Source: Chloroflexota bacterium (GTDB lineage Bacteria; Chloroflexota; Anaerolineae; Promineifilales; Promineifilaceae). Taken from it: a stretch of 64,000 bases of DNA. The position numbers were made by a program, and so were the translations under genes. The stretch lies in contig JAJRVV010000087.1 of NCBI GenBank assembly GCA_024277135.1, positions 1-64,000 of the forward strand, given 5' to 3'. The notes under the pieces were generated by a model, which was not told where the DNA came from, made no database searches, and saw nothing but the letters and a program-made list of their open reading frames with translations. Positions 525-64,000 of this stretch are shown here, one piece after another. Positions within the stretch are counted from its first letter, which is position 1, and every line of letters starts with the position of its first letter.

Positions 525-1040
525 ATGATTGAACTACTTGGCATTACCCTGTTGACCATCGTCACTTATTTTGCTTTGATAGCCTTGCTAACCACATTGG
601 TGTATCTCATCCCGGAAAAGGCGCGGCAAACCCAGCAAACGCTAACCGCCCGGCCCGGCCGTTCCTTCCTGATTGGGTTGGTCAACCTGCTCTTTTTTGG
701 GATTTTGGCCGCTTTTATGAGTCAGGGCGGGGAATTGTTGAGCATGATGGCGGTGGCTGTTCTGCTGGCTTTGCTGGCGTTGGCTTTCGTTGGGTTAGCA
801 GGGTTAGCGCTCATGCTCCGGCCCCGCTTTTTTCCGCCGCACGAGGAAACGGCGCATTCTTCACTGGCAGTGACCATGCGCACGGCCGTTTTGCTGGTAA
901 CAGCCATCCTGGCCCCCATTATCGGCTGGTTTGTGCTGGGGCCAATCTTGCTAATCGCCGGATTAGGGGCCGGGATTATGACGGTGGTGCGGCGCGGGGG
1001 GACGGCCGTTGCCTTTCCCGCAATCCCCAAAGAGCCGTAA
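525..1040 (+). CDS. Hypothetical polytopic membrane protein
   Basis: 171 aa, mostly hydrophobic segments; ORF directly after the repeat array. Confidence 0.6.
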   Translation: MIELLGITLLTIVTYFALIALLTTLVYLIPEKARQTQQTLTARPGRSFLIGLVNLLFFGILAAFMSQGGELLSMMAVAVLLALLALAFVGLAGLALMLRPRFFPPHEETAHSSLAVTMRTAVLLVTAILAPIIGWFVLGPILLIAGLGAGIMTVVRRGGTAVAFPAIPKEP

Positions 1041-1177
1041 AATGGTTGTAACGACACAGCATCGCGGCAAGACATCCGATTTCTTTTACTCATAACGTTG
1101 GCGTACTCAACAGCGAGAAATCGGATGTCTGTTGCAAATGGTTGGCGCACGGACGTTTTCCGTCTAACATTGTCCCC

Positions 1178-2641
1178 ATGAGCGATATACCCCCCAATGA
1201 ATTAAACGGACTGGATGCGCTGGCGCTAGCTGATTTGGTGCGCCGGAAAAAGGCAACGCCGCTAGAACTGGTTGAGGCGACCATCGCCCGGATTGAAGCG
1301 TTAAATCCACAGTTAAACGCGGTCGTCACGCCGGCATTTGATAGAGCGCGGGCGGCGGCTAAAGTCGCGTTACCGGACGGCCCGCTAGCCGGGGTTCCTT
1401 TTTTGTTAAAGGAGTCGTTGGCGGTAGCCGGGTGGCGGCAAAGTAATGGCGCCCGTATCCTGGCAAATTTGATAGCGGCGGAAGACAGTGAGTTAGCGCT
1501 CCGTTACCAACGAGCCGGGCTGCTGGCGGTGGGCAAGACCAATATGTCTGAATTTGGCCTGCTGCCCACCACTGAATCGCAGCTCTTTGGCCCCTGCCGT
1601 AATCCGTGGGATAGTTCGCGGATGCCGGGCGGCTCCAGCGGCGGCTCGGCGGCGGCGGTTGCCGCCGGCATCGTACCTGCCGCGCATGGCGCCGACGGCG
1701 GCGGCTCTATTCGCATTCCGGCCTCCTGCTGCGGCCTGTTTGGCCTAAAGCCGACGCGGGCGCGTACGCCCAAAGGGCCAAGCGTGGGCGATTCGATCAG
1801 CGGGCTGGTGATTGACCATATCCTCAGCCGGTCGGTGCGGGACAGCGCCGCGCTGCTGGATGCGACGGCCGGCGCGGCCATTGGCGATCCTTAGTGGGCG
1901 CCGCCGCAGGCACGGCCGTTTCTGGATGAGGTCAGCGCCGCGCCGGGACATCTGCGGATTGCATTTTCCACAGCGGCTATCACCGGAACCCCGGTTCATG
2001 CGGATTGTGTGACGGCGGTGCGGGAGACGGCCGTGTTGTGCGAGCAGTTGGGGCATACCGTCATCGAAGCCGCTCCGGCCATTGACGCCGAACAGTTTAG
2101 CGACGCCTTTATCGCCATGTGGGCCGCCGGATGCGCCTGGGGCGTGACCAGCATCGCCCGCCTGTCCGGGTTCCCGCCCCAGCCGGAAATGTATGAGCCG
2201 GTCACGTGGGGATTGTATGAACAGGCGCAGCGAATGACGGCCGCCGATTATCTGCTGGCCGTTCAGACCGTCCAGCGTATCGCGCGGCAGGCAGCCTGCT
2301 TCCATGAGCAATTTGACCTGTTTTTAACGCCTACCGTCGCCGATCCGCCGCTGCTGTTGGGGTCATTCGATAGTACGCCTGATAATCCGATGGCCGGGTT
2401 TGAGCGCGCCATCGCCTTTGCCGCCTTTACGCCGCAGGCCAACGCTACCGGGCAACCGGCGATGTCGGTTCCTCTCTATTGGAACGATGAGAATTTGCCG
2501 ATTGGGGTTCAGTTTACCGGCCGTTTTAGCGATGAGGCGACGCTGTTTCGGCTGGCGGGGCAGCTTGAAGCGGCACGGCCGTGGCAACATCGCCAACCGC
2601 CGCTATCCATCTGGGCCGCGAGAGGGGAAAGCGAGAGATAG
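1178..2641 (+). pseudogene. Amidase (amidase signature / GatA-like) interrupted by in-frame TAG at 1892-1894
   Basis: ORFs 1142-1894 and 2009-2641 are in the same frame; [14 protein letters not shown] signature; context GDP*WAPP where Tyr is typical. Confidence 0.85.
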
Positions 2642-2818
2642 GGGAACCGGCCGGTATTTTACCAGCATCCTGATTGGCACAACCGCCAGCAAACCGCCAA
2701 CGCATTGCCTGGAGCTATTGAGTTGCGGCCGTCATCGGGTATACTTAATCATAGATAGAAGGCGGAAACTCTTTCACCATGCCAACCGGCTATCCACCAA
2801 CCAACGACCCATCAATCC

Positions 2819-5800
2819 ATGAGCGATCTTGTCAACCAAACCCTCGGCAAATATAAAATCGTGTCCCGGCTGGGACGGGGCGGCATGGCCGATGTGTACA
2901 AGGCATACAACCCCAACTTGCAGCGGCACGTAGCCATCAAGGCGCTGCACGGCTATCCGGCCGAGCGGGAAATTGGCCGCTTTGAGCAGGAAGCGGCGGC
3001 CGTGGCCCGGCTGCGCCACCCCAACATCGTCCGCATTTTCGATTTTGACGTACATGACGGCTTGCATTACATGGTGATGGAGCTGATTGACGGCCCCACC
3101 CTGGAAGCAAAGCTGAAAGCAGATATGCAAAAAGGGCAGCGAAACTTGGAGGAAATCGCCCGCATTTTCGGCGACCTGGCCAACGCCATTGATTATGCCC
3201 ACAGCCGGGGTATGGTGCATCACGACTTGAAACCGGCTAACATTATGTTCACCAGTGAGGGGGAAGTGGCGCTGATGGACTTTGGCATCGCCCGCATTGT
3301 GGGCGAGCGCAGTCAGCACACCGCCACCGGTTCCATCACCGGCACCCCTGCCTACATGTCCCCGGAGCAGTGCAAAGGCTTGCGCGGCGACACTCGTTCC
3401 GACATTTATTCGCTGGGGGTGATTTTGTATGAGATGGCGTGCGGGCGTCCCCCTTTTCAAGCGGAAAACGTGTATGGTTACATCAAAGCTCACATCGGCG
3501 ACCGGCCGCCGCTGCCCAGCCAATTCGACCCGGAATTAACGCCGCCGGTGGAGAATGTCATCCTCAAATCTCTGCAAAAGAACCCGGCGGCGCGCTACCA
3601 GACGGCCGGGGAGATGGCGGCGGAACTGCGGGCGGCGCTGGGATTGAGCGCCGAGCCATCGGTGGCCCGCATCTCCACCATCGAGCGGAGCCAAATTGAT
3701 TGGGACGCCATCGAATCGTACATCAGTACCCGGCGGCGGGCGGCGGCGCCTTTCCAAGCGCCGCGTGACGTGGGCGCGTTTGTGGGACGGGAAAGTTTGT
3801 TGACGGCCGTCAAAGCCCAGCTAACCGGCGGCGGCCCGGCCATCGTGGCGCTGATTGGCATGGGCGGCATTGGCAAAACGGCGCTGGCGGTGCGGCTGGC
3901 GTATGCGCTGCGCGATTTGTTTGTGGACGGCGTGCTGTGGGCCAATCTGTCGGCCAGCGATCCACTGGCGGTGCTGGACAGTTGGGCGCGGGCGTTTGGC
4001 TTCGATTTCAGCAGCCTGCCCGACCTGGCCAGCCGGGCGGCGGCGCTGCGCGGCGAATTGGCCGGCAAGCGGGTGTTGTTGGTGCTGGACGACGCGCGGC
4101 AGGTGGATGCGGTACGGCCGCTCCTGCCCGGCGGCGATCAAAATGGGGTCATCCTCACTACCCGCGACCAGGAACTGCCGGTGGCGTTAGCAGCCAAAGC
4201 GATTGCGCTGCCGGTGTTGGCCGAAGCGGAAAGCGTGGCGCTGCTCACCCGGATTGTGGGTGAAGAACGAGTGGCGGCGGGAACGGCCGTGGCTGCCGAG
4301 ATCGGCAATTTGCTGGGCCATTTGCCGCTGGCGGTGGAGATCGCCGCCCGACTGCTGCTCAGCCGCCGCCGCTGGCGGTTGAGCGACCTGGCGGAAAGAT
4401 TGCAAGATGCGGACGGCCGTCTGGCGGCGTTGAAATTGCAAGACCGGGCGGTGCGGGCTTCCTTTGGCGTCAGTTTTGACCAGTTGACGGAGGAACAACA
4501 GCGGTTGTTTGGCTGGCTGGCGTTGTTCGGCGGACGGCCGTTCACGCCGGAAGCGTTGGCCGCCATCGCCGGAATTTCGCTGATGGCCGCTGAAGACCAT
4601 CTGTACCATTTGGCGGCGTTGTCGCTGGCGGCGGAAGCGGGCGCGGCACACTTTCGCCAACATCCGCTGTTGGCTGATTTTGCCCGGGAGCAGTTGGGAG
4701 AAAAGGAATGGGGGGCGGGGAACGGCCGTTTGGCCCGTTATTTCCTCGTGTTTGCCAGCAAGCATTTGGAAGATTACGCCGCGCTCAATCAGGAGCGGGA
4801 CAATTTGCTGGCCGGGATGCGGGCGGCGCGCCTACAGGAACAATGGGAGATGGTGCGCGACTACGCCGAGGCGCTGACGCCTTACTGGTTTGCCCAGGGG
4901 CATTTCAGTCAGGCGCGGCAGGGGTGCGGCTGGGCCGTGGCCGCCGCCGAAGCGCTGGCCGACCCGCTGTCCCGCATCGCCAACCTGACGCTGTGGGGGC
5001 AGGCGTGCGTTGAGCAGGGGGCCTATGCTGAAGCCCGCGTCCACCTGGACGCCGGTTTGCAGTTAGCGACGGAGGCCGGTCATAAATTGGGTCGAGCGCA
5101 AGCGCTTTACCATTGGGGCCGTATTGCTGTGGAACAGGGTGAATTCAAAGAGGCACAGCAATTTCTGGAAAACAGCCAGCGGCAGTTTGAAGAACTATCT
5201 GATTTGACGGGCGTCGCCATCGCGCTTTATCAACAGGCAAACGCGCAATATTATCTCCGTCATTATCCAGAAGCGGAACTGCTGGCCCGACAGTCATTAA
5301 GTATGCAACCAGCCAAACAAGCCTCGCACGGTCGTATACAAACTCTCCGTTTGTTGGCTGATTTGGCGCTTCACGGCAATGATGATTTGATCAAGTCCGA
5401 GGCATATTTGCATCGGGCCGTCAATCTAAGCCGGACACACCAAGATGAAGGGGAAATGGCGGTTTGTCTGTATGCGCTCGCCGAAATTTGCCGGCGGCAG
5501 GGTAATTTGGATGACGCCCTGGCGCAGGCAACTCAAGCGTTGGAACTGCTTGAAAAGATGGGGGATCGCAAATCAAAATCCCAGGTGTTGTACCGTATCA
5601 GCCTAATTTACGCAGACCAAAACGAGTATTCGCTGGCGCTAACTGCCGGGTTAGAAAGCCTGGAGATATGCCGAATGCTGCAAGATAATCAAGGCATGAT
5701 TTATGTGTTGACCCATTTAGGGGATGTCAGTCAAAATCTAGGTTATGCGGAGCGGGCGCAGGAAACATGGACCAAAGCGCTATCCCTTGCCAAAGCTGAA

Positions 5801-5845
5801 AATCACTCTTTGGCAGCTTCGTTGCAGGAAAAATTGGGGTTGTAG
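2819..5845 (+). CDS. Serine/threonine protein kinase fused to NB-ARC-type NTPase and TPR repeats
   Basis: GRGGMADVYKA, HHDLKPAN, MDFGIAR; P-loop GMGGIGKT, LLVLDD; C-terminal TPR-like repeats. Confidence 0.92.
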   Translation: MSDLVNQTLGKYKIVSRLGRGGMADVYKAYNPNLQRHVAIKALHGYPAEREIGRFEQEAAAVARLRHPNIVRIFDFDVHDGLHYMVMELIDGPTLEAKLKADMQKGQRNLEEIARIFGDLANAIDYAHSRGMVHHDLKPANIMFTSEGEVALMDFGIARIVGERSQHTATGSITGTPAYMSPEQCKGLRGDTRSDIYSLGVILYEMACGRPPFQAENVYGYIKAHIGDRPPLPSQFDPELTPPVENVILKSLQKNPAARYQTAGEMAAELRAALGLSAEPSVARISTIERSQIDWDAIESYISTRRRAAAPFQAPRDVGAFVGRESLLTAVKAQLTGGGPAIVALIGMGGIGKTALAVRLAYALRDLFVDGVLWANLSASDPLAVLDSWARAFGFDFSSLPDLASRAAALRGELAGKRVLLVLDDARQVDAVRPLLPGGDQNGVILTTRDQELPVALAAKAIALPVLAEAESVALLTRIVGEERVAAGTAVAAEIGNLLGHLPLAVEIAARLLLSRRRWRLSDLAERLQDADGRLAALKLQDRAVRASFGVSFDQLTEEQQRLFGWLALFGGRPFTPEALAAIAGISLMAAEDHLYHLAALSLAAEAGAAHFRQHPLLADFAREQLGEKEWGAGNGRLARYFLVFASKHLEDYAALNQERDNLLAGMRAARLQEQWEMVRDYAEALTPYWFAQGHFSQARQGCGWAVAAAEALADPLSRIANLTLWGQACVEQGAYAEARVHLDAGLQLATEAGHKLGRAQALYHWGRIAVEQGEFKEAQQFLENSQRQFEELSDLTGVAIALYQQANAQYYLRHYPEAELLARQSLSMQPAKQASHGRIQTLRLLADLALHGNDDLIKSEAYLHRAVNLSRTHQDEGEMAVCLYALAEICRRQGNLDDALAQATQALELLEKMGDRKSKSQVLYRISLIYADQNEYSLALTAGLESLEICRMLQDNQGMIYVLTHLGDVSQNLGYAERAQETWTKALSLAKAENHSLAASLQEKLGL

Positions 5846-5854
5846 GGGCGTTTT

Positions 5855-5943
5855 CAGTGTTCAGTCGGCAGTATTCAGTTATCAGTGGAGCCTGTCTCCC
5901 CCTCGCGCCTACCGAAAACTGAATACCAAATACTGAATACTGG
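5855..5943. repeat. Foldback heptamer array (CAGTNNN)5 ... (ACYRAAN)n between convergent genes
   Basis: cagtgtt cagtcgg cagtatt cagttat cagtgga ... accgaaa actgaat accaaat actgaat. Confidence 0.85.
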
Positions 5944-5950
5944 CTTCCAG

Positions 5951-7342: not shown

Positions 7343-7522
7343 TCATTATTTGGTTGATAACATCAGCATTGGTATCCCCTGCCAATTTGCATCATAGCAT
7401 GGGGGTTGAAGCGGGTCAAGCCTCTAGCAGCGCGAACGGAATTGCTTTCCGTCGAACACGTTGACAGGATGGCTTATGTAAAATCACATTGTCTATCTGT
7501 TGTCTGATGAGGGGGTAAAAGT

Positions 7523-8188
7523 TTAACTGCCCGGCATGATAAGTTTTTCCCCTATCTTGTGAAGATCATGAACAAACTGCGTTGGCGAAGGGGGCTTTAG
7601 CCAACGAATCACTTCCCAATCGGCCGTCGTTGCCGAGAGTAATACGCGCGCGAAATCTACGGAGAATATGCCCGCCGCTTTCCCCTGCGCGCCAATGATA
7701 GCGTCATGAATGGATAGTCTCATTTGGGTGCAAAACCCCCAAATATCAGCCAGGTCTTTGGGTTCTTCCCGGCCGAGGGCGGCATTGACTTTGTTGGCAA
7801 GGATGTTTTCGGCGGTATCTATCTTTCCCAAGATGGGGTTGATAGCGACTTCGCCCACGCGGAAGGGGATATCGTTCACGAATTCAAGTTTGAGCGTGGC
7901 ATCGGGACGGCGCAGCATCATGCGGACAAAACGGTGTTGTTTCGTTAACACATCGGTTTGCCACCGGTTTTGCTGTGAGAGGACGATAACGATCTGATGG
8001 ATCCATTCCTCAAAATGATCGTCGTAATTGACAAAAAAATCCAGGTTTTCTGAGAAACGGTGGTGGAGGTAACCGCGTGAAGCGGCCGTGCCGCCAGTAA
8101 GATAAAATCCTGTGTCCAGCGCGGTAATAATCTGTAATACCTGGTCTTGAAAAGGGTACAGCGTGTCCGCGAAAAATTGGCCGTCCAA
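7523..8188 (-). CDS. AbiEii-like nucleotidyltransferase
   Basis: GGTAASRGYLHHRFSENLDFF motif, 221 aa. Confidence 0.75.
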   Translation of the reverse strand: MDGQFFADTLYPFQDQVLQIITALDTGFYLTGGTAASRGYLHHRFSENLDFFVNYDDHFEEWIHQIVIVLSQQNRWQTDVLTKQHRFVRMMLRRPDATLKLEFVNDIPFRVGEVAINPILGKIDTAENILANKVNAALGREEPKDLADIWGFCTQMRLSIHDAIIGAQGKAAGIFSVDFARVLLSATTADWEVIRWLKPPSPTQFVHDLHKIGEKLIMPGS

Positions 8189-8215
8189 AATAATGCCTCT
8201 ACACGGTTTAGAAAT

Positions 8216-8596: not shown

Positions 8597-10969
8597 TCAA
8601 GGGCTGGCCTGCCACCACATTACTTGTCCGTCTGTCGCCAGTTCAATCGTTCCCAGTTCATCGGTGCGTAAAACGGCCGCGCCCACATCGGCGGCGCGTT
8701 GCAATATTTCTGGGGTTGGATGGCCGAAATTGTTGTCCGCCCCCACCGAAATGATGATGATCTGCGGCCGCACCGCTGCCAGGAACGGCCGACTGCTGGA
8801 GGAATCGGAGCCGTGATGCCCGGCTTTGAACAGCAGCGCCGACAACGGCCGCCCCGAAGCCAGCATCGCCGCCTCGGCCGCCTGCTCCGCATCCCCCGTC
8901 AGCAGCAGCGAAAAACCCCCGTACACCAGCCGGAAGCTGACCGAGTTTTCGTTCCGGTTGGCGTCGTTTCGTTCCGGGCCGGGATGCAAAATTTCCAGCC
9001 GCACGCCGTCGTCAATGCGAATGATTTCCCCGGCCATTGCCCGATGGATGGGGGTTCCCGCCGCCTGAGCCGCCGATAACACGGCATCGTAGACGGCCGT
9101 GCCCCCCATCTGCGAACCATCCGTCAGCAGCCGGCCCACCCGATATCGGTCAAACAGCCCTGCCAGCCCGGCCGCGTGATCAGCGTCGGGGTGGGTGGCG
9201 ACGACCAGATCAATCTCTCGGTCCCAAAACGGCATCTGCCGCCCCAGCCGGTCGTTGAGCAGGCTGGGATAATTGCCGCCGTCCACCAGAATTTGGCGGC
9301 CGCTGGGGGTTTGGATGAAGATGGCGTCCCCCTGCCCCACATCGAGAAAGGCGACGTGGAGACGGCCGTCCGGCTGCGACGCGCCCCACATCACGATTAA
9401 AACCAGCCCCAAAAAACTGCCGCTCAATGCCGCCCGTTGGCTGAAATTGCGGCGCAAACGAGCTATAACTTCCCGTCGCTTCACCTGATCCTGTTTTGCC
9501 AGCCAGGTCAGCCCGGCGATGATGGCGTAGAGGACGAGGACGGCCGTCGGCGATACGCTGATCGGAACCGCCGCCCCCGGCACAGCGGCAAAGGCGCGCA
9601 CTAACCCAATCGTGTACGCCAAAAACAGCCAGGCGATCCAGGCGAAAACCTGGCCGATGGCGGGGACGACCATGCCTGTTAACGCCGCCAATCCGCCCCA
9701 AATCATCACCCCTGGCTGCGCCGGCAGGATCAGGGCGTTGGCCGGGAAGCTGATCAGCGATACCTGGCGGAAGTAGAACATCATCAACGGCAGCGTCAGG
9801 ATTTGCGCTGCCAGCGTCACCAGCGCCGCTTCCGACAACCAGCCCATGATTTGATTGGTCGTTCGCCGATCCAGGCGGCGTAGCAGCCGCGCCCGCGTCC
9901 ATTGGATGAATGGGTCGGCGTACAACATCAGCCCCAGGGTGGCGGCGAAGCTGAGTTGGAAGCCGACGTCCCACAGGGTGAAGGGGTTGACGGCCGTCAT
10001 CACCCATCCCGCCCAAAACAGCGACGAGTAGGCAAAAGTGGGCCGTCCCAGGTAGCGGCTGGCGATGAGGTACAGCCCGCCCATGATGGCGGCGCGCACT
10101 ACCGAGGCGTCGGCCCCTACCAGCAGCGTGTAGAGGGCGACGCCGACCAGGGCCAGGAGGACGGCCGGACGCCGGGGCAGAAACTTCTCGGCAAAACCGG
10201 TGAAGACGGCGATGAGGATGGCGATGTTGAAGCCGGAGATGGCGATGATGTGGGTCATGCCGGTGGCGCGGAAGGCGTCGGCCAGGTCGGGCGGCAGGCC
10301 GTTGTCGTCCCCCAGCAGGATGCCGCTGAGCAGGGCGGCCTGCGGGTCGGGGATGAGCCGGTTGATGGCCGCCTGCGCCCGGCTTTTGAAGGCGAAGATG
10401 GCGTGGTAAAGCGGCTGGCCCTGCCCTTCCGCCAGCACGGTGACGGCGGGCAGGTTCATCAGGCTGTACACCCCTTGCCGCGCCAGATAATTTTTGTAGC
10501 TGAAATCCTCGAATTCGGGCGGGGTTTCGACCCGGCCGGTCAGTTGCAGCCGCATCCCATACTCGATTTCGGGATAACGAAAAACGCGCGCTTGCACATC
10601 GCCGGCGACGGCCGTTTCCACGCCATCGGGCAGCGTGATGGTTTCGGCGCGCAGGCGCAGGTTGACGGAACGGTCGCGCACGTCTGGCTCGGCGATGACC
10701 AGACCGGTGAGGCTGATTTCGTCTCCGTCGTTGTAATGGGCGATGTGGGAGGGGGTGATGGCGGGGACGGCCGTGATGTACCGGGCGCCGCCGAATCCGA
10801 CGGCCGTGACGCTTATCAGCCCCAATCTAAGACCGATTCGATTTTGGGCGAACAGGCTCCCAACCAATCCCAGAATGCCGATGATAAACCAGGTGGAAAC
10901 AGGCCAATTAAAATTGGAAGCCAACCAGATACCTGCCAACCAGGCTGTTCCGAGATAGACGCCTGTCAT
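8597..10969 (-). CDS. comEC: ComEC/Rec2 DNA internalisation competence protein
   Basis: Competence-domain membrane segment (LSGILLGDDNGLP, GMTHIIAISGFNIAIL) plus MBL domain (LDVGQGDAIFIQTP, THPDADHAAGL). Confidence 0.93.
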   Translation of the reverse strand: MTGVYLGTAWLAGIWLASNFNWPVSTWFIIGILGLVGSLFAQNRIGLRLGLISVTAVGFGGARYITAVPAITPSHIAHYNDGDEISLTGLVIAEPDVRDRSVNLRLRAETITLPDGVETAVAGDVQARVFRYPEIEYGMRLQLTGRVETPPEFEDFSYKNYLARQGVYSLMNLPAVTVLAEGQGQPLYHAIFAFKSRAQAAINRLIPDPQAALLSGILLGDDNGLPPDLADAFRATGMTHIIAISGFNIAILIAVFTGFAEKFLPRRPAVLLALVGVALYTLLVGADASVVRAAIMGGLYLIASRYLGRPTFAYSSLFWAGWVMTAVNPFTLWDVGFQLSFAATLGLMLYADPFIQWTRARLLRRLDRRTTNQIMGWLSEAALVTLAAQILTLPLMMFYFRQVSLISFPANALILPAQPGVMIWGGLAALTGMVVPAIGQVFAWIAWLFLAYTIGLVRAFAAVPGAAVPISVSPTAVLVLYAIIAGLTWLAKQDQVKRREVIARLRRNFSQRAALSGSFLGLVLIVMWGASQPDGRLHVAFLDVGQGDAIFIQTPSGRQILVDGGNYPSLLNDRLGRQMPFWDREIDLVVATHPDADHAAGLAGLFDRYRVGRLLTDGSQMGGTAVYDAVLSAAQAAGTPIHRAMAGEIIRIDDGVRLEILHPGPERNDANRNENSVSFRLVYGGFSLLLTGDAEQAAEAAMLASGRPLSALLFKAGHHGSDSSSSRPFLAAVRPQIIIISVGADNNFGHPTPEILQRAADVGAAVLRTDELGTIELATDGQVMWWQASP

Positions 10970-12495: not shown

Positions 12496-12910
12496 CAAAA
12501 ATATTGCGTAAGGTGTTTTAATTAGTCAAACACGTTTTTCTTGGACAAGCTTTTGTGTGGGCAAGATGGTCAGGAAAAGTCAGTTTTAGGTAAAAATGCA
12601 AAGCCATAAATCGGTAAAAACAGGTTTCAAGGGCAAGGTATTGGTTAAAGCCACGCTAACGAATAAGCGTCAACCTGATTTGCGAGATCGGGCTTTTTTG
12701 CCTGAAAAATTTGTAGTTTTTGAAGGTGTCTCGCCCGCGTAGGTATTTCGTTTTCTCGCAAACTGGTTATGCAGGCGTTATTTCTATCTTAAGCGGGTAA
12801 CGGCCGTCCCCCCACACCAGATATGCAAAATAAAACCTCATCCCGCTAACACCGTCGCCAGCCCCCTCTCCGCTTCCGCAACCGTCATCCCCTCTTGCGC
12901 ATATGTCTGG

Positions 12911-17333: not shown

Positions 17334-17412
17334 CAGTGGTCAGTGGTCAGTGGTCAGTAACCAGTAATCAGTGGTCAGTTAGTCGCTGAATACTGATTAC
17401 TGCCTACTGTTC
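17334..17412. repeat. Foldback heptamer array CAGTRRT family
   Basis: cagtggt cagtggt cagtggt cagtaac cagtaat cagtggt ... ctgaatactgattactgcctactgttc. Confidence 0.9.
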
Positions 17413-29589: not shown

Positions 29590-29622
29590 GCAAATGAGCA
29601 ATGAACAATGAGCAATGAACAA
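29590..29622. repeat. Short YAATGAR heptamer array between the tandem response regulator genes
   Basis: caaatgagcaatgaacaatgagcaatgaac. Confidence 0.85.
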
Positions 29623-41069: not shown

Positions 41070-42353
41070 ATGAAGAATGAGTTGGTGAACCACCAGGGTC
41101 AGCCGCGGGTTGTCATCACCGGCATTGGCATGATCAGCCCATTGGGGCATACGGCCGCCGCCAGTTGGGAGAGTCTGTTGCGCGGCCGTTCCGGCATCGG
41201 CCCCATCACCCAATTCGATCCGACCCAGTTCGACTTTCCCTCTCGCATTGCCGGCGAGGTCAAAAACTTCAACCCCAAAGCGTACATGGACTTTAAAGAA
41301 GCGCGGCGCATGTCCCGCGCCTCTCAACTGGCGGTGGCGGCGACGCGCATGGCCCTGGCCGACGCCAACCTACCAGAACCCGTTCCCGACCCGGAGCGCG
41401 TCGGCGTGTTGGTGGGGACGGGCGTGGGCGGCTTTGAGGTGGCAGACCGCGCCTTGCAAACGCTGCGCGGCAAAGGGTTTAACCGGGTCAGCCCCTTTGC
41501 CATGACCGGCTTTTTGCCCAACATGCCCAGCCATCATGTCAGCTTGGTTTCCGGCGCGCTGGGGCCAATCAGCACCGTGGCAGCCGCCTGCGCCACCGGC
41601 ACCCAGGCTATCGGCGAAGCCGCCGAGTTCATCCGCCGGGGGACGGCCGATGTTGTCATCACCGGCGGTGCGGAAGGGCTGATTCATGAAGCCGCCATCG
41701 CCGGATTTGGCGCGATGCGGGCGCTCTCCACCCATTACAACGACCGGCCGGAAAAAGCCAGCCGCCCCTTCGACAAAGATCGGGACGGATTTGTGTTGAG
41801 CGAGGGCGCCGGCATTCTGGTGATGGAGAGTTTGGTGCATGCCCGGGCGCGGCAAGCCCGGATTTATGCCGAACTGTTGGGCCACGCTTCCTCATCAGAT
41901 GCGTTCCATGTGGCGGCGCCCGATCCACAGGGAGCGGGCGCCGCGCGGGCGATGGGTTGGACATTGGATGATGGCGGGGTGACGACGGATGACGTAGATT
42001 ACATCAACGCCCACGGCACCTCGACGCCGATGAATGACAAAACAGAGACGCTGGCGATTAAAAAGTTGTTTGGCGAACGGGCGTATGAGATTCCGATCAG
42101 CAGCAATAAATCGGTGTTGGGCCATGCCATGGGGGCGACGGGAGCGATTGAGGCGATATTTAGCGCGTTTACCATTCATCATGGAGTGATTCCGCCGACA
42201 TGGAATTATGAAACGCCTGATCTGGAGTGTGACCTGGATTATGTGCCCAACGCGCCGCGTCGAGCAGATGTGCGGGTGGTGTTGTCGAATTCGTTTGGCC
42301 TGGGTGGGCAAAATGCTTGCCTGACATTAGGGAGAATGAACAATGAGCAATGA
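41070..42353 (+). CDS. fabF: Beta-ketoacyl-ACP synthase II
   Basis: VVITGIGMISPLGHTAAASWESLLRGRSGI; AAACATGTQAIGEA; NAHGTSTPMNDKTE; SNKSVLGHAMGATGA. Confidence 0.96.
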   Translation: MKNELVNHQGQPRVVITGIGMISPLGHTAAASWESLLRGRSGIGPITQFDPTQFDFPSRIAGEVKNFNPKAYMDFKEARRMSRASQLAVAATRMALADANLPEPVPDPERVGVLVGTGVGGFEVADRALQTLRGKGFNRVSPFAMTGFLPNMPSHHVSLVSGALGPISTVAAACATGTQAIGEAAEFIRRGTADVVITGGAEGLIHEAAIAGFGAMRALSTHYNDRPEKASRPFDKDRDGFVLSEGAGILVMESLVHARARQARIYAELLGHASSSDAFHVAAPDPQGAGAARAMGWTLDDGGVTTDDVDYINAHGTSTPMNDKTETLAIKKLFGERAYEIPISSNKSVLGHAMGATGAIEAIFSAFTIHHGVIPPTWNYETPDLECDLDYVPNAPRRADVRVVLSNSFGLGGQNACLTLGRMNNEQ

Positions 42354-42400
42354 GTAATGAGCAAACTTTTATTTGTTCATTGTTCATTGCTCATTTCTAA
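42337..42400. repeat. Foldback YAATGAR heptamer array overlapping the fabF 3' end
   Basis: gaatgaacaatgagcaatgagtaatgagcaaac...tttgttcattgttcattgctcattt. Confidence 0.9.
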
Positions 42401-53195: not shown

Positions 53196-54356
53196 ATGAC
53201 CCTTCCCCTTCCGGCCACGGCCGACATCGTCATCATCGGCGGCGGCGTTATGGGCGCCAGCATTGCCTACCATTTGGCCCAGCGCGGGCAAAAACATGTG
53301 TTGCTGCTGGAGCGAGATGAATTTTTTGGACAAGGGGCCACCGGCCGTTGCGCCGGCGGCGTCCGCTACCAGTTCGCCACCGAAGTTAACATTCGTCTGT
53401 CGCAGGCCAGCCTGCCCATGCTGGAGCGGTTTGAGGATGAGATTGGGCAAGCCATTGATTACCGGCAAATCGGTTATCTGTTTTTGTTGACCAACGAAGC
53501 GGACGTGGCCCGGTTTGAGCGCAACGTGGCTTTGCAGCGGCGGTTGGGCGCGCCCACCGAGTGGCTGAACGGCGACGAAATCCGCCGCCGTCTGCCGCAA
53601 ATGCGGCTGGATGATGTGTTGGCCGGGACGTTTTGCGCCAAAGATGGGCTGGTAGACCCGAATGGGGTGGTGATGGGCTACATCGGCGCAGCCAGGCGGC
53701 TGGGGGCGCAGGCGGTGACGGAGGCGGCGGTGACGGGAATTGAGGTGACAGCGGGGCGGGTGACGGCCGTTCACACCACCGCCGGAACCATCTCTACCCC
53801 CCTAGTCATCAACGCCGCCGGCCCCTGGGCCGCCCAAATCGGGGCGATGGCAGGCGTGGACATCCCCATCACCCCCATCCGCCGCCAGATGCTGACCACC
53901 ACCTCCCTGCCTCAAATTCCAGCCGATTTCCCCTTTGTCATTGATTTCGCCCAATCGCTCTATTTCCACCGGGAAGGGGAAGGGGTTTTAACCGGCATGT
54001 CCAACCCGGACGAGCCGCCCGGTTTTGACCAGCGGGTAGACCCTGACTGGGAACTGGTCGCCCTGGAAAAGGCCATTGAGCGGCTGCCCCTACTCGAAAA
54101 AGCGGGGTTGATAGCGCACTGGGCCGGTTTGTATGAGATGACACCGGACGCCCACCCCATTTACGGCCGTACCCCGGTAGACGGTTTCCTGGTTTGCGCC
54201 GGATTTTCGGGACATGGCTTTATGCACGGGCCGGTGTCCGGTTTGTTGATGGCCGAGATAGCGCTGGACGGCCGGGCGCAGACGGTGGATGTTTCCCTGT
54301 TGGATTACGGCCGTTTTGCCCAAAACCGCCTCATTCATGAATACAATGTGGTTTAA
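53196..54356 (+). CDS. FAD-dependent oxidoreductase (DAO family)
   Basis: DIVIIGGGVMGASIAYHLAQRG; TGRCAGGVRYQF; GLYEMTPDAHPIYGR; CAGFSGHGFMHGP. Confidence 0.92.
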   Translation: MTLPLPATADIVIIGGGVMGASIAYHLAQRGQKHVLLLERDEFFGQGATGRCAGGVRYQFATEVNIRLSQASLPMLERFEDEIGQAIDYRQIGYLFLLTNEADVARFERNVALQRRLGAPTEWLNGDEIRRRLPQMRLDDVLAGTFCAKDGLVDPNGVVMGYIGAARRLGAQAVTEAAVTGIEVTAGRVTAVHTTAGTISTPLVINAAGPWAAQIGAMAGVDIPITPIRRQMLTTTSLPQIPADFPFVIDFAQSLYFHREGEGVLTGMSNPDEPPGFDQRVDPDWELVALEKAIERLPLLEKAGLIAHWAGLYEMTPDAHPIYGRTPVDGFLVCAGFSGHGFMHGPVSGLLMAEIALDGRAQTVDVSLLDYGRFAQNRLIHEYNVV

Positions 54357-55587
54357 TCGGCGCCACGGGTTACTGCCTTTACTTTTGCTGTTGACGGTTG
54401 GCTTGACCGCCTGTTTGCGGACGGCGCTCACCTGCGACGATCCGCTGGGCTGCGTGGAAGCGCGCGCCAATCAAACCATCCGCATCGCCGCCTTGCTGCC
54501 CCTGAGCGGCAGCGGCGAATCGTTGGGCGAATTGGCGCGGAACGGCATTGATCTGGCGATTGCCGACCGCGGCGGCGGGCTGCTGAACCACCAGATTGAA
54601 CTGACGCTGTTTGATTCGGCTTGCCAGCCAGACACAGCCCAATCGGCCGCCGATGCCATCGTCGCCGACGCCCAAATTGTGGGGGTGGTGGGAACCATTT
54701 GCGCCAATGCCGCCCGCGCGGCCGTCGCCCAACTCAGCCCGGCCGGATTGACGATGATTTCTCCGGCCAATTCAGCCTCCAACCTGACCCGCCCTGACAG
54801 CCGTCAACCCGGTTATTTTCGCGCGGCCGTTTCACTGACCACACAAGGACAAATCGCCGCCCAATTCGCCTTCAATGAACTTTCGGCTCGGTCGGCGGCC
54901 ATCATCTACGATGACAGTGATTATGGAGACGAACTGCAAACGGCGTTTGCCGCCGCTTTTAAGGCGTTAGGCGGTCGCATCACCTTGCGCAGCCGCCGCC
55001 AAATTGAACTGACGACGGTGGAAGGCATTGTGAACAGCGTGGGACTGGGACGGCCAGATGTGCTGTACCTACCGCTGTTTGCGCCGGAAGCGGGCTTATT
55101 GGTGAATAAGCTGCGCCAGTCACCAGAGGTGGCGGTGACGGCCGTCCTGGGGACAGACAGCCTCTTTTTGCCAGAATTTGCCCTCAGCGCCGGGGCGGCG
55201 ACGGCCGGGGTGTATGTGTCGGGCACGGCCGTTTCCGGGCCGGATTATGAGGATTTTCTGGCGAGATGGGATGCGCGTTTTGACGAACGGCCGTCAGCCA
55301 CAGACGCGCTCATTCATCCCTTTGCCTATGACGCCGCCAACTTGCTGTTTGCCGCCGTGGAACAGGCAGCCCAGGTGGACAGCGGCGGACGGGCGCTGAT
55401 TGGCCGCTCCGCGCTGCGGCAGGCCATCGCCGATTTGGAACCGATGACCGGATTGACCGGGGCGGTGGCGTGTGACCCGTTTGGCGACTGTGCCTCCGCA
55501 ACGGCCGTCGGCATTTACCAGATCGCCGAGGCCGAGATTCGGGGTGAGCAGTGGCCGCCGCCGTTGGTGTGGCAGCCCGCCAATTAA
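54346..55587 (+). CDS. ABC transporter substrate-binding protein, paralog of the livK-type protein
   Basis: LLLTVGLTACL lipobox; RIAALLPLSGSGESLGELARNGIDLAI; overlaps DAO stop. Confidence 0.88.
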   Translation: MWFNRRHGLLPLLLLLTVGLTACLRTALTCDDPLGCVEARANQTIRIAALLPLSGSGESLGELARNGIDLAIADRGGGLLNHQIELTLFDSACQPDTAQSAADAIVADAQIVGVVGTICANAARAAVAQLSPAGLTMISPANSASNLTRPDSRQPGYFRAAVSLTTQGQIAAQFAFNELSARSAAIIYDDSDYGDELQTAFAAAFKALGGRITLRSRRQIELTTVEGIVNSVGLGRPDVLYLPLFAPEAGLLVNKLRQSPEVAVTAVLGTDSLFLPEFALSAGAATAGVYVSGTAVSGPDYEDFLARWDARFDERPSATDALIHPFAYDAANLLFAAVEQAAQVDSGGRALIGRSALRQAIADLEPMTGLTGAVACDPFGDCASATAVGIYQIAEAEIRGEQWPPPLVWQPAN

Positions 55588-58069: not shown

Positions 58070-58071
58070 CT

Positions 58072-58152
58072 GAGTGTTCAGTAAACAGTAATCAGTGTTC
58101 AGTCAGCGCATACTGAACACTGAATCACTGAACACCGAATACCGAATACTGA
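58072..58152. repeat. Foldback CAGTNNT heptamer array between convergent genes
   Basis: cagtaaacagtaatcagtgttcagtcag...tactgaacactgaatcactgaacaccgaataccgaatactgat. Confidence 0.9.
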
Positions 58153-58824
58153 TCATTTCTGCTGGCGGGCTTTGAGCCGCTTGGCGCGAGGGCCGACGAT
58201 GCGCTCCGTGCCATTTATGAGCCGTTTGATGTTGGGACGTAAGGCCCACACCACGATGGCGGCGGTGGCGATGCCGCCGATGATGTATGCCAGAGTGCCA
58301 TCATACTCACCTACCCCGGCAAAATATAAAACGGCAAAGCTGATGGGGATGATGGCGGCCATCGTCATGGAAGCGACGGAGGCCATGCCCAAACCGATCA
58401 ACATGGCGATCATAGTGAGGAAGCCGATGGGGAACATGGGCCACCAGATAGCGGTGGCCCAGCCTACGTTGGGGCCAGTGCCGGCGCCGCCTTTCCATTT
58501 GAGGAAGATGGACCAATTGTGGCCGATGACGGACATGACGCCGCAAATGATGAGCGCCCATGGCAGCAAAGAATCGCCCAAGGGGCCGCCAAGGATCCAG
58601 CGGGTGATCCAGATGCCGGCAAATCCTTTGAATACGTCGCTTAACCCGGTGAGGACACCGACGCTGACGCCGGCGGCGCGCAAGGAGTTGGTGCCGCCGG
58701 TACGGCCGCTACCGAATTCGGTCAGGTTGATGCCTTTTTTGATGCGGACATACAGGTAGCCGAAAGGAACAGCCCCGGCCAGGTAGCCGATTAATCCGGC
58801 GATGATGAAGTATATTGCGTTCAA
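58153..58824 (-). CDS. plsY: Glycerol-3-phosphate acyltransferase PlsY
   Basis: GYLAGAVPFGYLYVRIKKGINLTEFGSGRTGGTNSLRAAG; GHNWSIFLKWKGGAGTGPNVG. Confidence 0.92.
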   Translation of the reverse strand: MNAIYFIIAGLIGYLAGAVPFGYLYVRIKKGINLTEFGSGRTGGTNSLRAAGVSVGVLTGLSDVFKGFAGIWITRWILGGPLGDSLLPWALIICGVMSVIGHNWSIFLKWKGGAGTGPNVGWATAIWWPMFPIGFLTMIAMLIGLGMASVASMTMAAIIPISFAVLYFAGVGEYDGTLAYIIGGIATAAIVVWALRPNIKRLINGTERIVGPRAKRLKARQQK

Positions 58825-58904
58825 TGTGACCTTCCTTCGTTTGACTTGTGCGGGTTCAGTTTATTGCATCCTATAAAACACGCCAAACAGCTTGAGGTTG
58901 CTGA

Positions 58905-59351
58905 TCAGGTGATGGTTAGCTTGATTTCAGTGACACGGCCGTCTCTGATGGCAAAAGCGCGGGCAGTGGGAGCGTTACGTTTTTGCAGGGAGACGATGAT
59001 GGCAGCTGCATCAGGATAGTATGCCTGGGCGATGTCGGTGGCAGACGGATGTTCCGGCCCTTGCGGATGCGAATGAAAAAAGGCCGCTATCTCCTGTTCA
59101 CGATCTTCAATTTCCAGCATGGCCGCCAGTTGTTGCCGGGGATCCATCTCGTAGGCGGTCATGCTCTCCAGAATGTTGTCAATCGGGTAGAAAGCTGTCG
59201 CCTCACGGCCGCTTCCAGCCAGGATGCCACACGCTTCCAATGGGTAGTGGGTTTGTAAGTGGGCCAGCATTTGATCGTATAACGGCCGTGTCAGCCGAAT
59301 CTCGTGTTTGTGCAACATACCGGGCAAAATAATAAAAGCCGAATTGACCAA
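58905..59351 (-). CDS. M67 family (JAMM/Mov34) metallopeptidase
   Basis: PLEACGILAGSG; AFFHSHPQGPEHPSATDIAQA. Confidence 0.88.
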   Translation of the reverse strand: MVNSAFIILPGMLHKHEIRLTRPLYDQMLAHLQTHYPLEACGILAGSGREATAFYPIDNILESMTAYEMDPRQQLAAMLEIEDREQEIAAFFHSHPQGPEHPSATDIAQAYYPDAAAIIVSLQKRNAPTARAFAIRDGRVTEIKLTIT

Positions 59352-59370
59352 AAGCAGTCAATTCGGCTTT
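59335..59370 (-). terminator. Rho-independent terminator downstream of the ferredoxin gene
   Basis: Perfect 14-bp stem aaagccgaattgac/gtcaattcggcttt; T-rich tail on the minus strand. Confidence 0.88.
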
Positions 59371-59411
59371 ATGCGCGTCAATATCTCCCGAAAAAACGGG
59401 GGGACAAATGA

Positions 59412-59819
59412 TTAGTCGAGCGCGTCGTAGCCCGGCCCTTCCGAGAAGAACTCGTAATTCGGCGCAATATCTTCGGTGAGATCAAAAACCTCGCCGCCGG
59501 CCAACTGCTTGGCATTCAGCAATTTTACTTCGTGGCCGTCAATTTCACCGGCAAAAGGTTGGCCGTCGGCCAGCAGCTCTTTGGTGTTGGCGATCCAGAC
59601 ACCTTCTGGCGCTTCATAGTCAAACGGCACTTCTTCTTCGGGGAAGATAGCTTCGTAGGGACATTCGGGAACGCAAGCGCCACAATCAATGCAGGTGTCG
59701 GGATCGATGTACAGCCAGGGCCATTCCGTTTCGGGAATACCTAAAACCATGCATTCGACCGGGCAAACCTCAACACAAGCAGTGTCGCGCAAGCAAAGTC
59801 TGGTAACGATATGAGTCAT
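59412..59819 (-). CDS. 4Fe-4S ferredoxin-type protein
   Basis: CLRDTACVEVCPVECMV; DTCIDCGACVPECPYEAI. Confidence 0.94.
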   Translation of the reverse strand: MTHIVTRLCLRDTACVEVCPVECMVLGIPETEWPWLYIDPDTCIDCGACVPECPYEAIFPEEEVPFDYEAPEGVWIANTKELLADGQPFAGEIDGHEVKLLNAKQLAGGEVFDLTEDIAPNYEFFSEGPGYDALD

Positions 59820-60049
59820 GAGTGGTCTCCTTCACAATTTGAAAGCAGGTTGATTTGAAGCGGATTGACCATGCGCCGGTAGCTTGTTACCATTGGCACG
59901 ATGGTCGCTGACCACATTCTAGCCACACACTTTTGCTTTGTCAACATGATTTGCAGGGTCGCAATTGATGGGTCGAACTCGTGTGCGGGCAATTGGGAAA
60001 ACGGCCGTCTCCCATCATCCTTTTCGTCCCAGGCCAATGGTTGGTAAAC

Positions 60050-61015
60050 ATGGAACAAACACAACCTGAACCCCGCTTTTCCCCTGTTTTGGTGCTGACT
60101 TTTGGCGTTTTTGCCATCTCGTTCGGCTCCATCTTCATTCGACTGGCGTATAATGAAAATGTGCCGCCCTTGGTGATCGCCGTCTGGCGCACCGGGCTGG
60201 CCTCTCTCTTTTTGCTGCCGCTGGCGTTGGCGCGCAAGCGGGCAGAACTGGCGCAGTTAACCCGAACGGATTGGGGATGGGCTTTGCTGTCCGGCGGCAT
60301 GTTGGGGCTGCATTTTGGCAGTTGGGTGTCGTCCCTCTTGTACACCACCATCACCAGTTCGACGGTGTTGGTGACGACTTCGCCGCTGTGGGTGGCGGCC
60401 GCTTCCCCCTTTTTTCTGAAGGAGTCGCTGTCGCGCCCGCTGAAAATCGGCACGGCCATGGCGCTGGTGGGCAGTGTGGCAGTGGGGTTGGGCGATGTGT
60501 TGGCGGTGCCGGACGGCCGTCTCGCGTTCAACCTGGCGCAGCCCTCTGGAGCCAACCCCATGCTGGGCAACGGCCTGGCCTTGATTGGCGCGGCGGCAGC
60601 GGCGGCGTATCTGCTGATTGGCCGCCGGCTGCGCCCCAAACTCTCCTTGCTTAGCTACACGGCCGTCGTTTATGGCATGGCCGCCCTGACTTTGCTGGTC
60701 GCCACTCTGTCAGCAGGCGAACCGCTGTTTGCTTACAGCCCCAGAGCCTATCTGCTGTTCTTGCTGATGGCGATCTTCCCCCAACTCATCGGCCACTCCT
60801 CATTTAACTGGGCGCTGGGCTATCTGCCCGCCGCCTACGTGTCGGTAGCCGTCATCAGTGAGCCGGTGGGGGCCACCATTTTGGCGATTTTGCTGTTTCG
60901 GGAGATTCCAGGGCCGGTGGTGATTGCTGGCAGTTTGTTCATTTTGGCGGGCGTGGTCAAGGCGTCCCAACGAGAGGCAGAAGCATTAAGGGAGACGACT
61001 GGTAACGCGGCCTAA
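60050..61015 (+). CDS. DMT family (EamA) transporter
   Basis: FGSIFIRLAYNENVPPLVIAVWRTGLASLFLLPLAL; two repeated EamA-like halves. Confidence 0.9.
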   Translation: MEQTQPEPRFSPVLVLTFGVFAISFGSIFIRLAYNENVPPLVIAVWRTGLASLFLLPLALARKRAELAQLTRTDWGWALLSGGMLGLHFGSWVSSLLYTTITSSTVLVTTSPLWVAAASPFFLKESLSRPLKIGTAMALVGSVAVGLGDVLAVPDGRLAFNLAQPSGANPMLGNGLALIGAAAAAAYLLIGRRLRPKLSLLSYTAVVYGMAALTLLVATLSAGEPLFAYSPRAYLLFLLMAIFPQLIGHSSFNWALGYLPAAYVSVAVISEPVGATILAILLFREIPGPVVIAGSLFILAGVVKASQREAEALRETTGNAA

Positions 61016-61327
61016 AATTTTGTCGGGGAGGAAACGGCCGTAAACCCGACTGTCGCTGCTTTGGTCTGGATTATCGCCGATGAGGGAGAGACGGCCGTGC
61101 CCATCCACCTCTTGCACTCGTTTGATGATCCACAAATCAGGCTGATCGGGATGGCACGTCACCACCACATCCCCCGGCTGCGGCGATTGGCGGCGATACG
61201 CCCGCCGATCCACCAACACCTCATCCCCCGGCGCTAAACCCGGCAGCATAGAAACTCCGGTGACGCGCACGCGCCACCGGAGCCGCAATAACCAGAGTGC
61301 AAACTCTTTGATGTCGCTTTCTTTCAC
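60986..61327 (-). CDS. sodX: S26 signal peptidase-like nickel-SOD maturation protease
   Basis: GVSMLPGLAPGDEVLVDRRAYRRQSPQPGDVVV; directly downstream of sodN. Confidence 0.85.
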   Translation of the reverse strand: MKESDIKEFALWLLRLRWRVRVTGVSMLPGLAPGDEVLVDRRAYRRQSPQPGDVVVTCHPDQPDLWIIKRVQEVDGHGRLSLIGDNPDQSSDSRVYGRFLPDKILGRVTSRLP

Positions 61328-61333
61328 ATTCGC

Positions 61334-61792
61334 TTAGCTGGCCGTGTAATACGTCACATCCCGCCCTTTGGTGGCCCAGAAAATGTTGTGGATGTCTTGA
61401 ATGGCCGCCATCAACGCTTCCGCCTTCTCCAGGTTGGCCCCCACCTTGGCCGCCGAGCAGAGCTTGGCTGCCTGCCAGAACTTGTCGTGCAAATCCGGGT
61501 ATGCTTCCAGATGAACCGGCTTGAAATAATCCGTCCACAACACCAGCAGTTCCGTTTTGGCGATGTGCGCCTGCTCTTCCTTGATGGCGATGTAGCGGGA
61601 GAGGGTGTTAGCGGTGGCGTGGCTGCCATCGCCAGGGTCCAGCGCCAGGATTTTTTTGGTCATGGACAAAACCGCTTCGGCGGCGATGCGAGCCGAGGCG
61701 GGATCATAGACGCCGCAGGGACCGTCGCAGTGAGCGCTGACTGTATCCTGAGCTGGGAACCGATTCCGAATTTGAGTTAAGAGGGTTTTCAT
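61334..61792 (-). CDS. sodN: Nickel superoxide dismutase
   Basis: HCDGPCGVYDP nickel hook preceded by a short leader. Confidence 0.95.
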   Translation of the reverse strand: MKTLLTQIRNRFPAQDTVSAHCDGPCGVYDPASARIAAEAVLSMTKKILALDPGDGSHATANTLSRYIAIKEEQAHIAKTELLVLWTDYFKPVHLEAYPDLHDKFWQAAKLCSAAKVGANLEKAEALMAAIQDIHNIFWATKGRDVTYYTAS

Positions 61793-62155
61793 GACTACCT
61801 TCCTTTTTATGTGATTATGTGGCGAGGATTCGCCAAGTTTTTTAGACTTAACAGGTTTCGACTAAAGAGAGCGCCTGTCAGAATGCTTCAAAAAAACCTG
61901 TCAGGTCTTGTACGCACGTTGTTGACAATGTTTGTATCAGTAATACACCGGGCTGTCTAACGTTTCCTCAACTTCCCTCATCTGGTTTTAAGGCCGCTTT
62001 GTTAAAAGGTCGCTTTGTTAACGCGACGCATACGCGCCTTTTACTAAATTCTAACGGGATTGACTTACAGTAACTCTGTCCATTTTCGAGGATAAATTGC
62101 ATATATGAAACTGGCGGTAGTTTATTCATCAACACCGCCAGAGGGAGAGATACAG

Positions 62156-64000
62156 ATGAGCAAAATAGTTGGCATTGATTTAGGAACTACCAATTCTGTG
62201 GTAGCTGTGATGGAGGGGGGCGAAGCTGTTGTCATTTCTTCGGCCGAGGGCGGCCGTTTGACACCGTCTATGGTAGCCTTTAACAAAAATGGGGAGCGGC
62301 TGGTGGGCCAAACGGCCAAACGGCAGGCGACCATCAACCCGGAGAACACCATTTTCTCCGTGAAGCGGTTCATCGGCCGTCGCTTTGATGATCCAGAAGT
62401 GGCTGAGGAAAAAGCGCGTTTGCCCTATGCCCTGGAGAAAGGAGCGCAGGGAGATGTGCGGGTACGGATTCCACAAAACGGCCGCGCCTACACCCCCCAA
62501 GAAATCTCCGCCATGATTCTGAGCAAAATGAAACAGGACGCGGAAAATTACCTGGGCCAGCCGGTCACCAAAGCGGTCATCACCGTGCCCGCCTACTTTA
62601 ACGACAGCCAGCGGCAGGCCACCAAAGACGCCGGCAAAATCGCCGGGCTGGAAGTCCTGCGCATCATCAACGAACCCACTGCCGCTGCGCTGGCCTACGG
62701 GCTGGACAAGAAAAAAGATGAAACCATTCTCGTCTTCGATCTGGGCGGTGGCACGTTTGATGTCTCCGTGCTGGAAGTGAGCGAAGGATTGGTGGAAGTG
62801 GTTTCCACCCACGGCGACACCCACCTGGGCGGCGACGACTGGGATTTAGCCATTATGGATTGGGTGGTGGACGAATACCGGCGCGACCAGGGCATTGACC
62901 TTAAGCAAGACCGGCAGGCGTTACAGCGGGTGCGAGAAGCGGCCGAAAAAGCGAAGATCGAACTATCTACCACGATGCAGACGGAAATCAACCTGCCCTT
63001 CATCACCGCCGACGCCAGCGGCCCCAAACATCTGCAAATGACGCTGACCCGCGCCAAATTCGAGCAGATGACCCAGCATTTGCTGGAACGGATTAAAGAG
63101 CCTCTGCAAAAGGCGTTGCAAGACGCCAACCTGAGCGCTAGTCAGTTGGACGAGGTGGTGCTGGTCGGCGGCTCCACCCGGATGCCGGGAGTGCAGGCGT
63201 TGGTCAAGAAGTTGACCGGCAAAGAGTTGAACAAGAGCGTCAACCCGGACGAGGTGGTGGCGTTGGGCGCGGCTTTGCAGGGCGGCGTACTCACCGGCGA
63301 CGTGAATGATGTGTTGCTGCTGGATGTGACGCCGTTGAGCCTGGGTCTGGAGACGCTGGGCGGAGTGATGACGACGCTGATCCCGCGCAACACCACCATC
63401 CCCACCCGCAAATCAGAGGTGTTTAGCACGGCCGAAGACAATCAGACGGCCGTTGACATCCACATTTTGCAGGGCGAACGGCCGATGGCGGTAGACAACA
63501 GCGCTTTGGGCGTCTTCCGCCTGGAAGGGTTGCCGCCGGCGCCGCGTGGTATCCCCCAAATCGAAGTGACCTTCGATATTGACGCCAACGGCATCCTCAA
63601 CGTGACGGCCAAGGACAAGGCCACCGGCAAGAGCCAGGCCATCACCATCACCGCCAGCACCAATTTGAACGAGAGCGACGTGGAGCGGATGGTGCGCGAA
63701 GCGGAGCAAAACGCGGCAAACGACGCCAAACGACGGGAACTCATCGAAGCCCGGAACACGGCCGACCAGGTGATTTACCAGACGGAGAAAAGTTTGGAGG
63801 GCTTGAACGGTCAGGCTCCCGCCGAAGTGAAGTCGCAGGTTGAGTCCAAGATCGCGGAGTTGAAAGAGGCGGTCAAAGGAGACGATGCCGCCCGCATTCA
63901 GGCGTTGACCGGCGAGGCGCAGCAGTTGGCGATGAACATTGGTCAGGCGATGTACCAGAGCGGCGGCGGCCCCAATGCTAGCGTAGCGCCGAATCCTGAC
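62156..64000 (+). CDS. dnaK: Chaperone DnaK (3' end beyond window)
   Basis: [49 protein letters not shown]; open to the window end. Confidence 0.96.

Follow-up and report, generated by a model that had tools for sequence, protein, structure and literature searches.

A highly iterated palindrome comparable to cyanobacterial HIP1 in one family of Chloroflexota

The first 64,000 nucleotides of contig JAJRVV010000087.1 (assembly GCA_024277135.1, a Chloroflexota bacterium of the family Promineifilaceae), hereafter the window, contain 94 exact copies of the octamer ACGGCCGT, a perfect palindrome without strand that is dispersed from position 882 to 63453 with a mean spacing of 673 bp (coefficient of variation, CV, 0.95). 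An exact recount agrees with the 94 copies that an earlier note had counted by eye, and its expectation of about one or two copies is borne out by dinucleotide shuffles (mean 1.42, maximum 4). Markov models of order 1, 2 and 3 predict 1.5, 2.9 and 4.5 copies; models of order 5 and 6, which had been suggested for this count, predict 43 and 80 copies and are an invalid null, because the 6- and 7-mers of ACGGCCGT are themselves already inside the model. It is by far the most over-represented octamer in the window. As had been noticed, it is present in coding and intergenic DNA and in all three frames: 87 copies lie in predicted genes (46, 28 and 13 by frame) and 7 outside them (12800..12807, and copies at 1912, 28510, 32638, 39958, 44518 and 44762). 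Genes were called by a simple longest-open-reading-frame rule, so that a few frames could be wrong, too few to yield the occupancies of 90-95% described below. Repetitive extragenic palindromes are intergenic and have a longer, imperfect stem, and the element described here, genic in 87 of 94 copies and exact over 8 bp, is therefore not one of them.

Several genes of the window carry many copies. A gene for a Ser/Thr protein kinase with NB-ARC and TPR domains (2819..5845, + strand) has copies at 3803, 4283, 4413, 4534 and 4722, together with two permissive sites (positions where the encoded amino acids allow the palindrome) that are one base off, at 4114 (ACGGCCGC) and 5328 (ACGGTCGT). A gene for a ComEC-like competence protein (PF03772, DUF4131 and a metallo-beta-lactamase domain; 8597..10969, − strand) has copies at 9093, 9362, 9540, 9990, 10608, 10767 and 10800, and two permissive sites one base off (8785 and 8845). 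The gene of an extracellular solute-binding protein (PF00496/PF00497; 55472..58069, + strand) includes copies at 55501, 55787, 57435 and 57556. Only three Thr-Ala-Val (TAV) sites of the window are not spelled as the palindrome (2012, 32414 and 49018), the first of them being ACGGCGGT at 2012..2019 (+ strand), and an Asp-Gly-Arg site at 54268..54275 (+ strand) is one outer base short (ACGGCCGG).

Confinement to the window, which the earlier note had held to be damaging to its proposal, is not what was found: the whole genome (4.98 Mb in 251 contigs) contains 8,313 copies, one per 599 bp or 1,669 per Mb, and only 182 copies of the reversed control TGCCGGCA. Statistics beyond plain counts were obtained for this genome from sampled contigs. 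Variants of the palindrome differing by one base are unevenly represented in the window, changes of the outer bases being found 20-39 times and changes of the core 0-6 times.

In this genome TAV is spelled ACGGCCGT at 58 of 62 sites, [YHND]-Gly-Arg at 38 of 46 and x-Arg-Pro-y at 19 of 30, while codon usage predicts 10, 2 and 0.6. The occupancy of permissive sites can be compared with codon usage through a single odds factor, K, which is probably slightly underestimated because the codon table includes the copies themselves; for this genome K is 111 (71-173). Non-coding DNA contains 21 copies where 0.24-0.32 are expected, an excess of 65-87-fold. An origin of the count in codon or amino acid usage, or in a repetitive element, could be suspected from the genic location of most copies, and is already refuted: were codons used independently, 14 copies would be expected, and 135 were counted, all frames and also non-coding DNA are affected, the reversed tripeptide Val-Ala-Thr (VAT) is not enriched, and relatives with similar proteins lack the motif.

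The comparison with related genomes that the earlier note had advised shows a family-wide trait, the family being an uncultured one. Among 34 other genomes of the family, most contain about 3,000-13,700 copies of ACGGCCGT (densities of one per 476-600 bp), and 24 genomes from other families of the same order or class are at background, none of the outgroup genomes examined having such an octamer at the level of a highly iterated palindrome (HIP). The core CGGCCG is common to the family and the outer base pair depends on the lineage, being A..T in 13 genera, T..A in two, G..C in one and absent in a few. The motif types of the exceptional genomes were read from sampled DNA. The T type, TCGGCCGA, was found in two lineages (G007 and G031) and the G type, GCGGCCGC, in one (G013). 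G016 contains CGGCCG with little outer preference (21,019 copies genome-wide, one per 195 bp), a relaxed pattern that is also present, although weaker, in G005/G025 and G003/G023. No iterated octamer of this kind was found in the sampled DNA of G009, G027 and G020. The basal genome G011 has instead TGCCGGCA as iterated palindrome (3,665 copies) and avoids both CGGCCG (447 copies genome-wide) and GGCC (58 seen against 154 expected in sampled DNA), which parallels those cyanobacteria in which a restriction enzyme was thought to have displaced HIP1, the highly iterated palindrome of that phylum. In a tree of RpoB and FusA proteins, the earliest branches are G011, g20 and g10; one clade unites the T, G and core types, and another contains the A type, with the relaxed genus g4 within it. 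Between lineages, then, the outer pair has changed or disappeared and the core has persisted.

Two further observations concern the core. GCCGGC, its mirror arrangement, is nearly missing from G013 (51 copies in 8.0 Mb) and G016 (132 in 4.1 Mb), a scarcity that suggests restriction or linked avoidance. In outgroups from a sister family (G035-G038, for example loci L259-L262), CCGGCCGG and CGGCCG are mildly over-represented, with K of 5.4 and 2.8, and a weak form related to the process described here may be at work. A scan for named relatives used as query the aminotransferase of the window, which proved to be widely transferred; among its 80 loci, ACGGCCGT is borne by records named 'Chloroflexi bacterium Dive96_bin3.68', 'Chloroflexi bacterium Dive96_bin1.73' and 'Ardenticatenaceae bacterium S146' (Ardenticatenaceae being placed by NCBI in Chloroflexota, Ardenticatenia), and no other HIP-like octamer was found.

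Each type of genome saturates its own tripeptide only. Thr-Ala-Val is written ACG GCC GTN in 420 of 440 cases in A-type genomes, Ser-Ala-Asp/Glu (SA[DE]) carries the corresponding palindrome in 42 of 47 cases in T-type genomes and Ala-Ala-Ala (AAA) in 16 of 17 in the G-type genome; G016 saturates nearly all combinations and relatives without the motif none. K is 163 for the pooled A-type genomes (151, 101 and 265 by frame), 72 and 95 for the T types G007 and G031, 87 for the G type and 43 for TGCCGGCA in G011, and lies between 0 and 3 in genomes without the motif. High values are also found in contigs from IMG/VR (L311/L366, which are one contig, and L348): the lower confidence bound of K exceeds 140 for both L311 and L348, and the copies, at 2.8-3.7 per kb, are packed more densely than in chromosomes. 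The genes of L311/L366 (ParA, FtsK-like, anti-repressor, integrase and M23 peptidase) resemble those of a mobile element, and these possibly viral contigs presumably derive from hosts of this family; the scan that retrieved them contains many probable chance pairs. A single factor of about 100-fold fits the three frames, non-coding DNA and the mobile-element-like contigs.

This process has also altered proteins. In A-type genomes TAV is present at 6.4 times the expectation from composition and Asn-Gly-Arg (NGR) at 4.5 times, the reversed VAT being at 1.0, and no other tripeptides are as enriched as TAV and NGR in comparison with relatives and outgroups without the motif. T-type genomes have SA[DE] at 3.3 times and TAV at 0.3 times the expectation, and the G type has AAA at 3.7 times. 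A process acting at the DNA level has therefore changed the tripeptide content of whole proteomes. The earlier note had stated that protein sequence does not drive the motif, and this has to be qualified: protein sequence limits where the motif can be placed, within those limits the motif is nearly always there, and the motif has in turn modified protein sequence.

The recognised sequence is, in most genomes, the full 8 bp. CGGCCG with both outer bases wrong has a K of about 1 (0.6-2.0), one-base variants have K of 1.2-4.5 when the change is in an outer base and of 0.09-1.2 when it is in the core, and seven-base half-matches have K of about 2-4.5, except ACGGCCGC and ACGGCCGG (1.2-1.5); recognition is graded towards a symmetric site. 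The distances between copies are exponentially distributed (CV 1.03; Kolmogorov-Smirnov p 0.55), the distance to the nearest copy is equal for occupied and empty permissive sites (p 0.92), and occupancy is unchanged within 100 bp of another copy, which indicates that the process acts on each site alone, in disagreement with the set density of Elhai's model for HIPs and with uptake signals. A DNA-uptake sequence, enriched by biased transformation as a mark of self-recognition, had been considered in the earlier note. The ComEC-like gene, whose sequence suggests that natural transformation may be possible in this organism, would agree with it, as does a density of the order known for uptake sequences, and those of Neisseria and Pasteurellaceae are likewise short, fully specified, very abundant and genome-wide. 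Uptake would, however, be expected to space the copies, because the benefit is per fragment and a second copy should bring no gain, and the spacing and neighbour results just given are contrary to this; moreover, the motif is a perfect, fully specified 8-bp palindrome and fills nearly all permissive positions without any dependence on distance. We regard this role as very improbable.

Copies are strongly conserved at orthologous positions of rpoB, the earlier note having proposed a comparison of such positions. Genomes with 70-75% nucleotide identity have 74% of their copies in this gene in common, against 10% of 8-mers, and where amino acids are identical the copy is kept in 86% of pairs, other 8-mers in 17% (the pairs being non-independent). 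This sharing may reflect repeated gain or retention, both being possible because most permissive sites get filled. Retention across genera is what would be expected from weak uniform selection on every copy (about 2Ns = 5 per site, N being effective population size and s the selection coefficient), for example as the site of a nucleoid or chromosome-organising protein, and the position-independence of the factor is in agreement with it. Against it, Ns would have to be nearly constant to give K of similar size in unrelated phyla and on mobile-element-like contigs, there is no short-range regularity of spacing, some sister genera live without the motif, and the outer base has been switched several times while the strength of the process was kept. 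Selection of this kind is the main rival explanation, though less likely than not.

HIP1 (GCGATCGC), which had been named as the precedent, proved an apt one. By the same calculation, its K is 104 (77-142) on five 50-kb stretches of Trichormus variabilis plasmid A and 60 (31-115) on Synechocystis pSYSM, and Ala-Ile-Ala reaches 3.75 times the expectation on the Trichormus plasmid (rearranged controls 1.4-1.8). Both are GC-rich palindromic octamers found genome-wide in genes and between them at similar density, that of HIP1 being 855-1,418 per Mb in two genomes (PMC3497702), and according to one author very few bacterial genomes have octamers so frequent (PMC3497702). They also share near-misses at positions 1 and 8, lineages without the motif and an equal odds factor. 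The features used to describe HIPs (Elhai 2015) are seen in this family: a density of about 500-2500 per Mb, far above expectation (1,669 per Mb in the genome of the window), frame-independent dispersal, deviations at outer positions, alternate or lost palindromes in sister lineages and orthologous retention (in rpoB only). The alternate HIPs reported in cyanobacteria are TCGATCGA, GGGATCCC, GGCGCC, rCCGGy and GCsGC (PMC4390886), and here, too, palindromes are swapped between sister lineages, including a change of the outer pair only, as between GCGATCGC and TCGATCGA; in contrast to them, one family contains three values of the outer pair (A..T, T..A and G..C) plus a relaxed form, and the trait is carried mostly as clades and not sporadically. 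The element is not HIP1 proper, since the octamer differs (core CGGCCG instead of CGATCG), its carriers are Chloroflexota and not cyanobacteria, and no shared candidate methyltransferase was found, HIP1 genomes generally carrying GATC and CGATCG enzymes (PMC4390886). No HIP outside cyanobacteria was found in a literature search. Almost certainly this is a HIP system outside cyanobacteria, in one family of Chloroflexota, with an origin independent from HIP1. To our knowledge HIP1 is restricted to cyanobacteria, and, in the literature other than a 2018 study on selection, we are not aware that the occupancy law had been stated for it before.

A methyltransferase shared by the bearing genomes, one of the roles that had been envisaged, was not found in searches of the family for the C5, N4/N6 and Dam types; the sequences of hits fetched as loci were clustered, and no cluster follows the motif. 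The genomes are drafts, and the specificity of such enzymes cannot be read from sequence. C5 methyltransferases (PF00145) are missing from 8 palindrome-bearing genomes, and neither the nearly complete G018 nor the well-assembled G017 has a plausible CGGCCG enzyme among C5, N4/N6 and Dam types. A 316-aa N4/N6 enzyme of G017 was discarded as a reader since G011, a genome that avoids CGGCCG, has it as well. Of 52 family genomes, only 14 match a well-conserved N4/N6 group (alignment A1) at full strength, and the Dam-type methyltransferase (TIGR00571; for example loci L127-L146) is near-universal in the family, with or without the motif. GATC itself is under-represented in the window (205 against 330 expected). 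These results bear on Elhai's model, a methylation-dependent drive in which a CGGCCG/GGCC methyltransferase would mark the sites and methyl-directed mismatch repair would ratchet near-sites to about one per kilobase. The bias of near-misses to outer positions, as in HIP1, the presence of mutS1 and the case of G011, which parallels Elhai's alternate HIPs (PMC4390886), agree with it, and enzymes that share the specificity without being related, or genes that the drafts lack, would fit the survey, which on sequence grounds argues against a universal homologous methyltransferase and not against methylation as such. The lack of a C5 or N4/N6 enzyme common to the bearing genomes and the independence of the Dam type from the motif speak against it, as do a density that is uncapped, with one copy per 476-600 bp and one core per 195 bp in G016, and an occupancy blind to neighbours. 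Such a drive is improbable.

A precedent for the repair role mentioned in the earlier note is the very short patch repair of Vsr and Dcm, an established example of a repair enzyme with sequence specificity that shifts the abundance of one short palindrome. Vsr corrects T:G only, unlike the process described here, in which all positions of the octamer are enforced, and is rare in the family. We consider that a directional, site-autonomous mismatch repair or conversion, guided by a putative palindrome reader, has about an even chance of being what drives the motif. The reader, probably a symmetric dimer with recognition graded by half-site, would bind the palindrome, would make mismatches in near-palindromes resolve to the palindrome and would protect existing copies from change; each copy would then be an attractor, and no function of individual copies would be required. 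All 24 genomes tested, whether they bear the motif or not, have a match to mutS1, which in 22 of them exceeds the curated cut-off, so that there is a mismatch repair that could be biased; its loss typically raises mutation rates by a factor of the order of 100. Repair is preferred over selection because K near 100 recurs across genera, phyla and mobile DNA: similar values in many genera and in another phylum would fit a biochemical ratio better, since under selection K should rise exponentially with effective population size.

Several points weigh against biased repair. No C5, N4/N6 or Dam-type family tracks the motif among the family drafts and no reader protein was found among them, and Vsr, present in only 8 of 52 family genomes, does not track it either. 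Biased repair and weak uniform selection lead to one and the same stationary distribution and cannot be told apart by conservation between species. The confidence intervals of K within the A type are wide (point values from 50 to several hundred), so that a narrow range can be claimed only approximately. Finally, statistical analyses of cyanobacterial HIP1 have been read as selective maintenance (Xu, Lawrence and Durand 2018, as cited in PMC6604393), which lends selection statistical support to the extent conveyed by that citation. More tentatively than for biased repair itself, and at less than even confidence, we propose that a directional repair system, sequence-specific and independent of methylation, is carried by the ordinary machinery of the chromosome, imposes one palindrome on practically all permissible positions, rewrites proteins and has had its outer pair re-targeted several times, and that HIP1 is another product of the same class of process.

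Other repeats of the window are short tandem arrays. Heptamers of the form AATGARY (AATGAGC, AATGAAC or AATGAAT) are arrayed at 139-197, 298-495, 29593-29622 and 42335-42395, in intergenic positions or at gene ends and in both orientations near 42.3 kb, with a few matches in G012 and G032, and they resemble the heptanucleotide tandem repeats of cyanobacteria. Two more arrays lie between genes, one of the 7-bp unit CAGTGGT (17334-17379) and the other of an about 15-bp unit, ATACTGAACACTGA (58110-58152).

For about 30 years HIP1 has lacked an explanation, and the family studied here provides a second, independent case of comparable strength. Because close relatives carry, lack, relax or re-target the motif, its cause can be sought by genome comparison, and any mechanism will have to account for a simple law, a single odds factor of about 100 that holds for HIP1 too. 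A process acting at the DNA level that reshapes the tripeptide content of proteomes matters, in addition, for phylogenetics and for work on codon usage in these groups.

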